Part shown: one piece after another, positions 21,214 to 40,830 of the stretch
Position numbering within the stretch: the stretch's first letter is position 1
How the letters are laid out: each line of letters starts with the position of its first letter
Origin: Deroplatys truncata
Taxonomy: Eukaryota; Arthropoda; Insecta; Mantodea; Mantidae
Length of the DNA stretch: 64,000 nt
Direction of reading: 5' to 3'
Assembly: GCA_030765065.1 (NCBI GenBank)
Contig: CM060978.1
Span: 220,181,498 to 220,245,497, forward strand
Position numbers and translations under genes: made by a program
Notes under the pieces: model-generated
Databases searched by the model: none
What the model saw: only the letters and a program-made list of their open reading frames with translations
What the model was told of the DNA's origin: nothing

Positions 21214-21895
21214 CGTGGTTATCTAAAAAACTTGGACTAAAATCTGGCTTTATTTGGTCAAACAGTTACTTCCTGGTTTTGAATATAATGAATGAGTAAA
21301 AAGTAACCATATTAAACTGAATTTAAGATTAGAAAAGGAATTGAATGCAGCGTCACCTGCAACTAACGGTTTAACAAATGGAACGCGACCAACTAAGAGT
21401 TAATAAGCAATTTACCCAAAAAAAATGAGTAATCAGGGTAGCGCTGGGCAAAAACTTGGCCACACGAGTTTACTCATAAAATTACGTTGCAGTTAATCTA
21501 AAATTAGTATAACTATATGGCACCAACTGGTACTACAAAGTTGACAAGATTAAATATGCTATTTTTATATATTTATATTCCTTTAATCGTACGCTAGAAT
21601 TAAAATATAATTTATTGGCGAACCATTCATAATAAATATTTTCAAATACATGTCCACCTTGGTACGCGCATTGATGTAAACGTCCCTTAGTATCAGCATG
21701 GACACGTTTTAACATATTTTCTGTTTATATTGAAGCACAGGCATTGAGTGAAGTGAATAAAAATAAGCTTTTGCTAAAACTAGTATAGTTTAAGTTAGTA
21801 CCTACAATTTAGTGAATAACGCTTAAGTTTCTACTTGAATTACTAGTTTTATCTATAAGTAAACATAATGGAATTAATATAAAACTAGTACACTG
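21214..21895. other. Unique AT-rich sequence
   Basis: No gene or repeat recognised. Supplies the left flank (ACTG) of the inverted-arm element that follows. Confidence 0.4.
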
Positions 21896-22326
21896 TGTGC
21901 TGTTATGTGTTCTTTTTATGTTTTGTATCTGTATTATACATCCAGCCAGTCACTTTACGTTGCTTGTCCCCTTTGCTTAACGCTCTCTTTGGTGCTCTCT
22001 TTTTTTTTCCTCTGTGGGTTGCTGACGTGGCATGTGCTTGGGCCGTACGCGCTGAGTGGTGGATTTCTGTCCGCATTGCAGGGATAGCTCTCTGCCCGGC
22101 AACTACTGATGCGGATTGTGGAAGTTTTTGTAATGAATTTTTAAGGAACGTCTTTGTGATTTTCGGTGGATCGACCTTATGTAAAGGTAGGCTTTATTAT
22201 CAGTTTTATGTCCTGGTAATGGTGAGTGAATTTTGGGGCGGAAAACGTTATGTGTGTTTGAAAATAAGAGTTCGTAAAGTGACTGGCTCTTGGGGTTGTT
22301 CATAGGTTTAGTGTGTTTTGTTTCTT
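21896..22326 (+). repeat. Left arm of the long-inverted-arm element
   Basis: Contains CCAGTCACTTTACG at 21946-21959 and its complement at 22273-22286. The arm carries an open frame (21895-22305) whose product would start CCYVFFLCFVSV; I do not recognise it. Confidence 0.9.
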
Positions 22327-22360
22327 CAGTAATTTGCAATGGTTCCGCTGTTTGACTGAG

Positions 22361-22402
22361 TTAGGGAACCCCGGCCAAACGAAAAGGGAAGCCCTAACGA
22401 GT
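22361..22402. other. Hairpin in the element core
   Basis: GTTAGGG and its complement CCCTAAC flank a G/C-rich stretch with further pairing (GGGAA, CCCC). It may be a structured remnant of the original element core. Confidence 0.4.
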
Positions 22403-22946
22403 GCCGTAGGGGAAAACAAAAGGAAACCAGAACTCTCAAAAATATACTACTATTGATAAGTTTGTTTTTGGGTACTTTAATGATAATAATAAACAAACAT
22501 TAATAACCAGAACCGTAAAGCAACCATAAAAGAATAACTGTAAAACAAAAATGGCTTAAAGAGTAAAGCAACCAAAACCAATTGAGCAGAGCAGTAAAGG
22601 CAAGTTTTAAATACAGCAAAATTAAGTAAATCCAAAAATTCAACAAACCAAATCAATTTAGAAAGTTTATAAAACAAGGCCACTATAAACATCAGACCAA
22701 AAGAATTTAATTATGTTTAGCTAGTCAAAGACTAGCTAAGAATGTTGAACAAGACCGAAACAGACTTTAATGAAATTCAGGAAACCGAGAGCTTCAAAGT
22801 CCAGCTAAGCTAGATGTAGATAGCTTTACAACCCAACCGTTTTCAGTTACAAAGTTCAGCATAAATGGGTTCAGCATAACTGGGTTTTAACTGCAATTAC
22901 TGCTCTCATAATTTACACAACAGAATATCTGTAATTTTGAATTAAC

Positions 22947-23170
22947 TATGCATTTTCAAAGTGCCCAAAATATGTAAAGCTCTACTCACAAATTTCTACT
23001 TATATTGCTTCTTGCCCTCCTTTTATCAAACTATGCAATTTCAGACGACAAATGCCAAAAGCTTTTCTCACAAATTTCACACTACTGATGCTTTTTACCT
23101 TCATGAATCAAAATATGCATTTTCAAATTGCACAACTGTGTAAAGCTCTTATCACAAATTTTAAACTAAC
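22947..23170 (+). repeat. Decayed tandem repeat in the element core
   Basis: Three units of about 81-85 bp start with tatgcaWtttca at 22947, 23032 and 23113; each carries aaagct and ctcacaaattt-like blocks. They lie between the inverted arms. Confidence 0.6.
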
Positions 23171-23213
23171 TATACACTGAAAATCACGTACTGAAAATAT
23201 AACTCAACTGGAA

Positions 23214-23644
23214 AAGAAACAAAACACACTAAACCTATGAACAACTCCAAGAGCCAGTCACTTTACGAACTCTTATTTTCAAACACACATAACGTTTTCC
23301 GCCCCAAAATTCACTCACCATTACCAGGACATAAAACTGATAATAAAGCCTACCTTTACATAAGGTCGATCCACCGAAAATCACAAAGACGTTCCTTAAA
23401 AATTCATTACAAAAACTTCCACAATCCGCATCAGTAGTTGCCGGGCAGAGAGCTATCCCTGCAATGCGGACAGAAATCCACCACTCAGCGCGTACGGCCC
23501 AAGCACATGCCACGTCAGCAACCCACAGAGGAAAAAAAAAGAGAGCACCAAAGAGAGCGTTAAGCAAAGGGGACAAGCAACGTAAAGTGACTGGCTGGAT
23601 GTATAATACAGATACAAAACATAAAAAGAACACATAACAGCACA
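23214..23644 (-). repeat. Right arm of the long-inverted-arm element
   Basis: Inverted copy of 21896-22326, with the internal CCAGTCACTTTACG pair at 23254-23267 and 23581-23594. Confidence 0.9.
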
Positions 23645-23727
23645 ACTGAGATAGAATATCTTTACGTCATTAGCACCACGTTTAAGTGCCAATTTGAAGG
23701 TTCTATTATAATTCCACTGTTGGGGAG

Positions 23728-23981
23728 TGTAGCGGGGTTTGGAAAATAAAGGTAACGTTTTCTGGTTGGTAAGGTCTTGGTGTAGGGTTTCAGGTGATTG
23801 CCGGCTGCTCAGGTAGAGGATGATGGGTTACGAGAATCTTACCTCAGGGATTGTGTGGATGGGAGGTGAATGATACTCACAACTCCTCTCAATGGCCCAT
23901 TTATTATGAAGATCCACACTGGTTTTCGTACTGCAGGCCCTTCACACAAGACGCGTTCCGATCAGTTTTTCCCCCGTTACA
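23728..23981 (-). repeat. LTR-like unit 1 of the double insertion
   Basis: A 254-bp unit; its minus strand starts TGTAACGGGGGAA and ends CCCCGCTACA. Confidence 0.8.
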
Positions 23982-24595
23982 GTCTCCGTGCTTTTACCCT
24001 TGAATTTATTCTAGTTCTCATTTACTCATAGTATGACTGTTGTCATCCCTAGGGTTTGGAAAATAAAGGTAACGTTTTCTGGTTGGTAAGGTCTTGGTGT
24101 AGGGTTTCAGGTGATTGCCGGCTGCTCAGGTAGAGGATGATGGGTTACGAGAATCTTACCTCAGGGATTGTGTGGATGGGAGGTGAATGATACTCACAAC
24201 TCCTCTCAATGGCCCATTTATTATGAAGATCCACACTGGTTTTCGTACTGCAGGCCCTTCACACAAGACGCGTTCCGATCAGTTTTTCCCCCGTTACAGA
24301 CGAGGGAGTATCATTCACCTCCCATCCACACAATCCCTGAGGTAAGATTCTCGTAACCCATCATCCTCTACCTGAGCAGCCGGCAATCACCTGAAACCCT
24401 ACACCAAGACCTTACCAACCAGAAAACGTTACCTTTATTTTCCAAACCCCGCTACAAAATGTTGTGTTGGGAGGAGATAGAAAGAGGATGTTAGAATTCT
24501 GTATCGGGAAAAGAGATAGGGTAGCTAGGGATGACAACAGTCATACTATGAGTAAATGAGAACTAGAATAAATTCAAGGGTAAAAGCACGGAGAC

Positions 24596-24849
24596 TGTAA
24601 CGGGGGAAAAACTGATCGGAACGCGTCTTGTGTGAAGGGCCTGCAGTACGAAAACCAGTGTGGATCTTCATAATAAATGGGCCATTGAGAGGAGTTGTGA
24701 GTATCATTCACCTCCCATCCACACAATCCCTGAGGTAAGATTCTCGTAACCCATCATCCTCTACCTGAGCAGCCGGCAATCACCTGAAACCCTACACCAA
24801 GACCTTACCAACCAGAAAACGTTACCTTTATTTTCCAAACCCCGCTACA
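24596..24849 (+). repeat. LTR-like unit 4 of the double insertion
   Basis: Full 254-bp unit in plus orientation, from TGTAACGGGGG to CCCCGCTACA, the mirror of unit 1. AATAAA lies near 24671, in CATAATAAATGG. Confidence 0.8.
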
Positions 24850-25844
24850 GGAGCCAAACTTGATGAAGTAACTGCCCCACGTATGGTACAAATTTTTCGG
24901 TGGCCTTCGCCGCAAGGTTTAGAAATCAACTTTGTATTTTTATATTTCTTTAAATATTATATATAAGGTTTGCCTCGGCTGCGCCAGTATTAATTTGTAG
25001 AAACATATATCTCTTAGCAGGGGGTGATACGGCTAAAGAATGTAGGCTTACAGAAATTATAATTTTTTACTTTACTCCTTTTATTAATCCTTCATACGAT
25101 TAAATAATACTTCACTTATATAGAGAGCTGTGAGATTATTTATTAATTACTTGCACTTTTAACACGTAAACTTTATAATATTCTCGCCGTAATGAATTTT
25201 ATATGTCTCACACTGAATACCTACCGAGGGAACGAACTGCTCAGGTACGTTGCCTTCTAGCGACTGGCGTTTACCGCTTAAATTTGTAAATTTCTCTATT
25301 TGAAGTCTCTGATTGGCTAATCCCACTCCAATAGAATATTTTTATTAAACTTAAGCTTTATCTAGTTGTTGATTGGCTAATCTGTTTTATATATTACATA
25401 ATTGTTCCAACAATTACTAGTAGCATTATTAAACTTTCCAATTCATTATTGCCTCAAGGTTACCTCATTGTTAGCAAATTTCAGCTTCTGTTCTCACAGC
25501 TCCTACATTATTAAATTACCTAACACATTCACATAACATTATTATACATGTACACAATAATATAAACATATACAATGACTGTAGCATACATTTTTATATA
25601 TTGTAGTATACACATATTGCTTTAAGGCGGGCTGTTATTATATTTTATATTAAGTAATTAGACTGAAATCATTTAAGTGTTAAACTACTACCTCAACACC
25701 GAGATGTTGCTTGAATTTTGCAGTTAATCAAAAAATGTGTGTATAAACACAAGCTAGATATTTTTTACTGGTCGTTTAATCGCAAGAATTCCAAGTGTGC
25801 CTCTGACCACGCTTAAATCAGTCTATTCCACTACCGACTAGAAG

Positions 25845-39544: not shown

Positions 39545-40830
39545 TACGAGGGGCACTAATTATATTTTGAGCCTTGGCAACCCTGAATGTTGTGGGTGCC
39601 ATCTGACGTTTCCAAAGGAAAGTTTAACATTTTTTACCATAATCTACTTTAAACAATTTTTCAATAGAGCGTCATTTGTTTTATTTACACTAACTTGAAA
39701 ATTGTGTGTCAACAAAAACATGGAATTAACTCGTGAAAATGTTCGTGCAATGATTTATTACGATTTTCGACGAGGATTATCAAGACAAAAGTGCATCGAT
39801 CAACTAACTTCCACATTTGGCGACGAAGTTCCATCCTTTGCCACTGTGAAACGCTGGTATAATGAATTTAATCGTGCCCCGCGTTCGCTCAATGATGAAG
39901 TTCGTGATGGTCGTCCAAAATCAGTTGTGCCAGAAAACATTGATGCTGTGCAAAAACTAATAATGAAAGATCGTCATACGACATATTGTGAGATTGAGGC
40001 AACCCTGGGCATTAGTTCCACCAGCATATATAAAATATTGCATGATTATTTAGCCGTGAAAAAGGTTTGCTCTTGTTGGATCCCACATAATTTGATGCAA
40101 TCTAAAAAAATGCTCGTGTCGATTGCTGTACAAAAATGCTCAAGAAATACAATGGCGGTGCCTCAAAAGACGTATATAAGATTGTAACAGATGACGAATC
40201 ATAGATCTATGCGTATGAGCCGGAATGTAACAGCAGTCGACTGTATGGGTGTTTCAAGATGAAGCAAATCCAACAAAAGTCGTTCGCACTCGAAGCACCT
40301 CGAAGCAAATAGTCGCATGCTTTTTCAGCAAAACTGGAAATGTGGCAACAGTACCTTTAGAGGAACGTAAAATGGTCAATGCCGAATGGTACCAGCCATT
40401 TGTTTGCCGGAAGTCTTCGGTGAAGTAAGAAAAACCAAGAACCGTAGGATCGTTCTTCATCAAGAGAATGCGAGCGCACACACATCTCGTCTAACAACAG
40501 AGAATTTGAAGGTTCAAAAAATCGAATTGATGTGTCATTCGCCATACAGTCCTGATTTCGCACCCAATGACTTGTTTTTGTTCCCGAACATCAAGAACAA
40601 ATTGCGTGGACAACGATTTTCGTTGGCAGAAGAAGCCATTAATGCCTTCAAAAACCATGTTTTGTAGGTGTCTCAAGAAGACTGGAATAAATGCTTTGAC
40701 AAATGGTTCAAACGGATGCAAAAGTGTATTGATCATAAAGGAGAATATTTTGAAAAACAATAAATCAGCTTTCAATCAGAAATTACCGTGTTTTAATTAT
40801 TAGGCTCAAAATATAAACAGTGCCCTCGTA
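39545..40830 (+). mobile_element. mariner element, nearly full length
   Basis: A 1282-bp element (39547-40828) between TA dinucleotides (39545-39546; 40829-40830). The ends are CGAGGGGCACTAATTATA... and ...TATAAACAGTGCCCTCG, imperfect inverted repeats of about 26 bp. Size, TA target and the transposase inside fit the mariner family. Confidence 0.92.
39720..40763 (+). pseudogene. mariner transposase pseudogene
   Basis: ATG at 39720; the N-terminal helix-turn-helix region reads cleanly (MELTRENVRAMIYYDFRRGL, ATVKRWYNEFN, GRPKSVVPENIDAV, LGISSTSIYKIL, CSCWIPHNL). Frameshifts near 40100 and between 40200 and 40380 break the middle, where TDDES (first catalytic Asp) is still visible near 40190. 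The C-terminal part is readable from 40386 (LPEVFGEVRKT). The second catalytic position is Glu (LHQENASAHTS); the third is YSPDFAPND, 34 residues on, so the DD34D frame has become D-E-D. A TAG at 40665 interrupts before the normal end (CIDHKGEYFEKQ, TAA at 40761). Confidence 0.9.

Follow-up and report, generated by a model that had tools for sequence, protein, structure and literature searches.

We asked how four copies of one LTR, two in each orientation, came to lie between the two copies of a single target-site duplication in the genome of Deroplatys truncata. The window, by which we mean the whole stretch of 64,000 nucleotides that was analysed, carries at 23728-24849 a single insertion with the target-site duplication (TSD) GGAG on both sides. 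This agrees with an initial annotation made from the letters alone, whose coordinates, unit order (minus, minus, plus-fragment, plus) and account of the shortened units, with 7 bp absent from unit 2 and about the first 103 bp from unit 3, were borne out by the layout analysis. The four LTR copies are identical wherever they overlap. Each half reads LTR, internal piece, LTR from the centre outward, so that the halves face away from each other. The parent element, which we call family 1, reads in its sense direction along the plus orientation of the window. The features are as follows.

23724-23727: left TSD, GGAG
23728-23981, minus strand: unit 1, complete 254-bp LTR whose outer end is the U5 end (TGTAGCGGGG on the plus strand)
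23982-24052, minus strand: Q, final 71 bp of the internal region, PPT side
24052-24298, minus strand: unit 2, LTR positions 1-247, without 7 bp at the U5 end and with 1 bp (C) in common with Q
24299-24305: centre joint, one base (C on the minus strand, as before U3 in other copies) plus the filler ACGAGG
24306-24456, plus strand: unit 3, LTR positions 104-254
24457-24524, plus strand: U, 68 bp
24457-24461, plus strand: AAATG, the spacer AAA plus TG, the first 2 nt of the PBS-like TGGCACCCAACGTG
24462-24524, plus strand: U(6-68), internal region -134 to -72
24525-24595, plus strand: Q, final 71 bp of the internal region
24596-24849, plus strand: unit 4, complete LTR whose outer end is the U5 end
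24850-24853: right TSD, GGAG

The outer mirrored arms are 325 bp long and 100% identical, both outer ends are U5 ends, and the TSD sits at the exact TG..CA ends. We scanned the window for mirrored arms by exact inverted seeds of 20 within 6 kb. Exact arms longer than 65 bp were found in just two insertions, this one and a neighbour at 21896-23644, sub-pairs within 23728-24849 being set aside. Both insertions have TG...CA ends and a 4-bp TSD. Rfam gave nothing at gathering scores over the window, RNA folding of U+Q gave no signal (z -0.33), and a BLAST search against phages gave no match. An exact-pattern scan found nothing in viral contigs and 7 matches to an 18-base word in genome contigs, which is about the chance level by an estimated expectation. 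Elsewhere in the window we observed an open frame with the Mos1-type HTH (PF17906) of a mariner transposase (39699-40187, plus strand), an open frame with a rhodopsin-type 7-TM receptor domain (PF00001; 4466-5470, minus strand) and, at many places between 872 and 60862, an abundant interspersed repeat that is followed in places by a CACAGACA-type simple repeat.

The genome (4.29 Gb, 818 contigs) was searched for the 254-bp unit and for U, as had been proposed with the initial annotation, and LTR copies in direct orientation were recovered. The unit gave 42 matches (best 40 of 1824 candidates scored), several of them on the same strand and spaced by about 8.25 (8.2) or about 6.2 kb, as LTRs of whole or tandem elements. 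In the outside loci that were fetched, U(6-68) and Q were contiguous and lay directly before the LTR, so that U(6-68)+Q makes up the final 134 bp of the internal region. In copies with internal sequence following the LTR, we found AAA and then TGGCACCCAACGTG (1 base different in one row), which we take to be a tRNA-type primer binding site. A 1.8-kb piece inside one family-1 element matched RT_RNaseH_2, RT_RNaseH, Integrase_H2C2 and then rve, and from this order of RNase H, H2C2 and rve within one element we read family 1 as Ty3/Gypsy; the rve match is weak (23.4 bits, E 7.5e-5, under the curated cut-off of 32.6). Also in keeping with Ty3/Gypsy are the TG..CA LTRs shared with complete elements, RT/RNase H ahead of integrase in a complete relative, and a short TSD of fixed length, the family-1 case being the GGAG of 23728-24849. 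The 254-bp unit is an LTR that belongs to a multi-copy Ty3/Gypsy element and not to a miniature family. The initial description of two miniature LTR-like elements fused head to head thus keeps its LTR units and its mirrored dimer, but loses the word miniature, the small internal stretch being the internal 3′ end of full-size elements.

No LTR start was present at any of four 5′ ends predicted for family-1 arrays, and in the nearest relative (L010) the stretches reaching C1:265733500 contained no second LTR. A 441-aa open frame after the primer binding site had no retroelement match in Pfam. LTR position 104 was considered as a possible start of R: the initiator-like word TCATTC has its A at 111, and unit 3 does not start exactly there. 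Regular rows of same-strand LTRs, with periods of about 6.2, 8.25 and 7.6 kb, were observed at C1:205934833-205953690, C14:132682846-132699590 and C7:257280311-257295976 as tandem arrays sharing LTRs. At another locus (C16:596447285-596447574, L043), the U stretch occurs twice, 156 bp apart, ahead of the LTR.

The internal structure of the two halves differs. The right half consists of LTR 104-254, AAATG, internal -134 to -1 and an LTR; the left half, in its own sense, consists of LTR 1-247, internal -71 to -1 and an LTR. U is absent from the left half, as had been noted, but it was not simply lost from there: the halves carry two different internal deletions. The joint of AAATG to U6 has no shared base, and the joint of LTR position 247 to Q shares one C. 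Among 41 matches (best 40 of 628 candidates scored), the joint of AAATG to U6 was covered by the window's own copy only. The centre joint, too, was matched in full only by itself, other matches covering at most 60 of its 121 bases (best 40 of 663 candidates scored). No second copy of the whole layout was found in the genome searches, with the best 40 or so candidates scored in each, and no convincing match by eye was found for slippage as the origin of the filler ACGAGG.

Each half has the outline LTR, short internal piece, LTR that is known from TRIM elements of ants, bivalves and plants, as far as the available portions of those reports describe them. Unlike those, the insertion has no primer binding site beyond TG, and its LTR is that of full-size elements. 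We rejected a TRIM family, the primer binding site being lost (only TG of TGG follows unit 3), unit 2 meeting Q without its LTR end, and the small internal region with its joint of AAATG to U6 being shared by no other scored copy.

A single base bears on whether the halves have a common source. Position 22 of the LTR is C in units 1, 2 and 4, the three units that span it, and A in the other tabulated LTR rows except those of C1:265723835 and C8:86371110. The copy at C1:265723835 has 1 LTR mismatch in all, and its U(6-68) and Q are identical to those of the insertion. Unit 3 does not span position 22; over 104-254 it also equals four other LTR rows (L023, L024, L026 and L027), from which it is indistinguishable. 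Given the rare C22 in both halves, both very probably derive from one source. Of the two routes named in the initial annotation, arrival as a dimer is the more likely.

Two further histories were weighed against these data. If two family-1 elements had inserted independently in opposite orientations and the host DNA between them had been deleted, good U5 ends on both halves would be expected, as observed. Such a history is nevertheless very improbable, since the outer 4 bp would match by chance in 1 of 256 cases, units 1, 2 and 4 are identical with one rare base in common, and the neighbour and three other mirrored pairs described below likewise have matching outer TSDs. Replication template switching might instead have produced an inverted duplication of one element after insertion. 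The two family-1 LTR ends (TGTAACGGGG / TGTAGCGGGG) are imperfect inverted copies of each other, and a switch there could put a U5-type end at the TSD. We still regard it as unlikely: the switch would have to fall exactly at the TSD and be accompanied by further deletions, and the account does not extend to the similar outcome in a second family with a tRNA at the centre.

The initial annotation had named a foldback element as the reading to adopt if all genomic copies were mirrored. This was not seen: in 56 of 56 outside family-1 locus rows (some overlapping), a single LTR was found within about 1.5 kb on each side, and none was mirrored at that range. A foldback or Ginger-type DNA transposon, whose TIRs merely resemble LTR ends, would nonetheless fit the TGTNR ends and 4-bp TSD that Ginger and Gypsy have in common (PMC2836005, in the portion available). 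The insertion resembles Ginger in having LTR-like ends as inverted repeats. It differs, as far as that portion describes Ginger, in lacking a transposase between the ends, in showing no sign of remobilisation and in its TSD, GGAG being neither CCGG/CCGT nor derived from RTATAY. With the other copies present as direct-orientation LTRs, RNase H and integrase domains coded inside one of them, and a centre joint that has one full match, such a transposon is extremely improbable, and the foldback candidate was rejected. Penelope-like and DIRS elements were also set aside, on the exact TG..CA ends and the 4-bp TSD. DIRS elements have inverted terminal repeats, no TSD and a tyrosine recombinase; the insertion shares the inverted repeats but has a TSD.

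The second mirrored insertion lies 75 bp away, the host DNA between the ACTG and GGAG duplications being 23649-23723, and is composed as follows.

21892-21895: left TSD, ACTG
21896-22326, plus strand: positions 1-431 of the family-2 LTR, U3 end outward
22327-22334, minus strand: U5-end spacer AATTAC followed by TG, 2 nt from the PBS-like TGG, meeting the opposite LTR piece at its position 431
22335-23644, minus strand: complete inverted LTR, 1310 bp, U3 end outward
23645-23648: right TSD, ACTG

Its arms differ by 1 mismatch in 431. The arm is a portion of a 1310-bp LTR belonging to a second Ty3/Gypsy family, family 2, in which same-strand pairs lie about 7.6 kb apart (best 40 of 1251 candidates scored); a family-2 piece matched RVT_1 and rve above cut-off, and a family-2 element at C1:83242291 has the 4-bp TSD AGAT. 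Among the matches of the search with this arm, the sole close opposite-strand pair was the neighbour's own. Its inversion joint had one full match, also its own (best 40 of 1644 candidates scored). The ACTG in which the AATTAC+TG terminus ends could base-pair with a CAGT located 3 nt away from the joint. Plus-strand strong-stop DNA consists of U3-R-U5 and a copy of the tRNA end, and the structure of the neighbour is that expected from self-priming of such DNA, but for three missing bases.

Among the 41 matches of the neighbour-joint search (best 40 of 1644 candidates), we found one further mirrored pair, two facing U5 ends 59 bp apart on C1 (L082). It is a mirrored pair of complete LTRs with the TSD TAGT, and between its U5 ends lies the 3′ part of a tRNA with CCA. 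Rfam placed the tRNA model at 18.4 bits (gathering score 29, E 0.1) on this centre, behind three likewise sub-threshold miRNA rows, which we read as an effect of the palindrome; we base the tRNA identity on the matches and the gene call that follow. A search with the centre gave 153 matches (best 39 of 357 candidates scored), including clusters that match without CCA; one match of this kind (L091) is a tRNA-Met (CAT) by ARAGORN, which we take to be the initiator. Dense clusters of this tRNA-Met-like kind without CCA were observed at C9:56623711-56626140, C12:144592213-144596464 and C12:145673502-145705466. Among the matches listed, nine places (L082 to L090) match through CCA.

Several of these places are themselves mirrored. 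The pair at L083/L092 has the TSD ACAT, 4 extra bases and an LTR that is 87.5% alike to family 2 over 64 bp only. The pair at L084/L093 has the TSD TGCT, TC for TG in its left LTR, 21 extra bases and diverged arms (about 95%). In both, as in L082, facing U5 ends flank the copied 3′ part of tRNA-Met with CCA. The place at L085/L095 (C2:227028120-227029959) is also mirrored, its right LTR stopping at position 959; between the U5+TG end and its tRNA-Met copy lie 281 bp that include an open frame coding for kinesin motor sequence (PF00225, E 1.7e-32), apparently a captured piece of host mRNA. L087/L094 is a probable mirrored pair: its facing LTR-like ends are of another kind, and its arms are short (49 and 157 bp) and diverged. 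By eye, no mirrored partner was recognised within about 400 bases at each of L086, L088, L089 and L090. Other mirrored dimers with their own duplications, for which the initial annotation had proposed to look, are thus represented by L082, L092, L093 and the neighbour. Mirrored LTR insertions bounded by 4-bp TSDs are a recurrent feature of this genome. Several of them have a tRNA copy at the centre, and this tRNA-Met 3′ part ties mirrored insertions to strong-stop DNA.

The copies also record how far the tRNA was read. Among the matches listed, 9 of 9 CCA-bearing copies start at position 14-17 of the tRNA gene; much shorter copies would rank lower, and the search therefore accounts in part for the constant start, though not for the absence of longer copies. 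A total of 7 mismatches separate the nine copies from one tRNA gene, and A58 accounts for 3 (binomial P 0.00015 at this one site under equal rates). The flanks of L086 and L089 resemble each other, and these two copies may have a common origin. A58 is presumably the usual m1A58 (1-methyladenosine) site. m1A makes reverse transcriptase misread.

A palindromic chimeric read might be suspected in view of two perfect or nearly perfect palindromes with 75 bp of host DNA between them. A folded read would mirror the flanks too, whereas the flanks here differ and are bounded by TSDs; the same type occurs on other contigs, in L093 with diverged arms. An assembly artefact is accordingly most improbable.

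Counts of mirrored pairs are lower bounds, because about 40 best candidates were scored per search. Mirrored insertions look like a small but recurrent minority, affecting no fewer than three types of LTR, namely those of families 1 and 2 and of the relative in L092. The pattern CCATTGCAAATTACN{45,75}GTAATTTGCAATGG, which describes tRNA-length centres between exact family-2 ends, matched L082 only, with 0 matches in the control; L092 and L093 do not fit it. In the literature on palindromic, inverted or strong-stop products, as represented by titles and opening lines of abstracts and mostly from outside subscription journals, no integrated mirrored LTR pairs with the primer tRNA at the centre were found. 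An 'inverted pair of LTRs' is stated for a locust Gypsy element in the available part of PMC8786324, which may or may not mean the same layout.

The insertion at 23728-24849 shares with L082, L092 and L093 the inverted LTRs within one TSD. Those three have U3 outward and U5 facing, and the neighbour also has U3 outward, whereas in 23728-24849 the U5 ends are outward. It has a U5+AAA+TG terminus, in which just 2 bases could be tRNA-derived, and no longer tRNA copy. These differences indicate that it is not the same product as the other mirrored elements. Its family shares with ordinary Ty3/Gypsy elements the TG..CA LTR ends, the PBS-like site and the RNase H-H2C2-rve order, and family 2 has the 4-bp TSD; unlike in such elements, the LTRs of the insertion are inverted, its internal region is nearly gone and both its outer ends are the same LTR end.

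We consider it probable that the insertion arose when aberrant Ty3/Gypsy cDNA formed a palindromic dimer and an integrase, acting on two like (U5) ends, inserted it in one event. A source in reverse-transcription error, suggested in the initial annotation, is likely on this account. Where the primer is not removed, the copying of plus-strand strong-stop DNA would run into the tRNA, here halting in the D loop; where the primer has been trimmed, TG would be left. Such molecules may be joined U5 to U5, fold back, or prime at the wrong place. The resulting dimer would have two equal LTR ends, and its insertion by integrase would leave a 4-bp TSD. In 23728-24849, each half would start as plus-strand strong-stop DNA (LTR, or LTR+AAA+TG with the tRNA primer trimmed to 2 nt) that was extended or joined wrongly, 134 or 71 nt before the 3′ LTR and not at the primer binding site. 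The two small products would then be joined at their U3 sides with the 6-bp filler. Mis-transfer beside the 3′ LTR in both halves, together with the joint at the U3 sides, would leave the U5 ends for integration. We infer the order of these steps, the choice between polymerase jump and end joining at each joint, and the use of two U5 ends by integrase.

Related reactions are described in the available portions of two reports. In Ty3, tRNA-iMet pairs with the PBS, and the PPT seems to prime more than once (PMC5371799), so several strong-stop DNAs would be supplied. Self-priming is known for HIV-1 strong-stop DNA as a side product of reverse transcription (PMC4668388); unlike the plus-strand products proposed here, which were integrated with TSDs, that DNA is minus-strand and abortive.

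The main rival for the joints is nuclear end joining of cDNA ends, and it may be part of the same story. In its full form, reverse transcription was normal, host end joining linked linear cDNA pieces from a single element inside the nucleus, and the product was then integrated. Two joints with 0-1 bp of homology and a centre with a 6-bp filler fit end joining as well as they fit polymerase jumps, and U5+TG resembles a trimmed cDNA end. Set against this, integrase normally uses the two ends of one cDNA, and the related mirrored elements have tRNA copied to a near-constant stop and exact U3 ends, which point to reverse-transcription steps. We regard the full form, which overlaps the dimer of aberrant cDNA, as a real possibility, though short of an even chance.

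More broadly, and tentatively, we propose that Ty3/Gypsy elements in this genome may, as a regular occurrence, insert strong-stop or mis-transferred cDNA in the form of palindromic dimers, using two like LTR ends. The products would be TIR-like elements, of which several contain a reverse-transcribed copy of the primer tRNA at their centre and one (L095) the captured host kinesin fragment. Such a side pathway would preserve primer tRNAs as fossils that bear a modification mark, and it would be a concrete step by which LTR elements approach inverted-repeat elements moved by integrase, such as Ginger. The authors who described Ginger suggested that its TIRs could derive from two oppositely oriented LTRs (PMC2836005, in the portion available), and mirrored insertions are a candidate precursor for this passage from inverted LTRs to DNA transposons with TIRs. 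Natural integrations with the same LTR end on both sides bear on the question of whether a U3 end and a U5 end are both required by Ty3/Gypsy integrase. The tRNA-centred insertions name the primer, record the depth to which reverse transcriptase read into the tRNA and may record its methylation, and mirrored insertions are a possible route for the capture of pieces of host mRNA.
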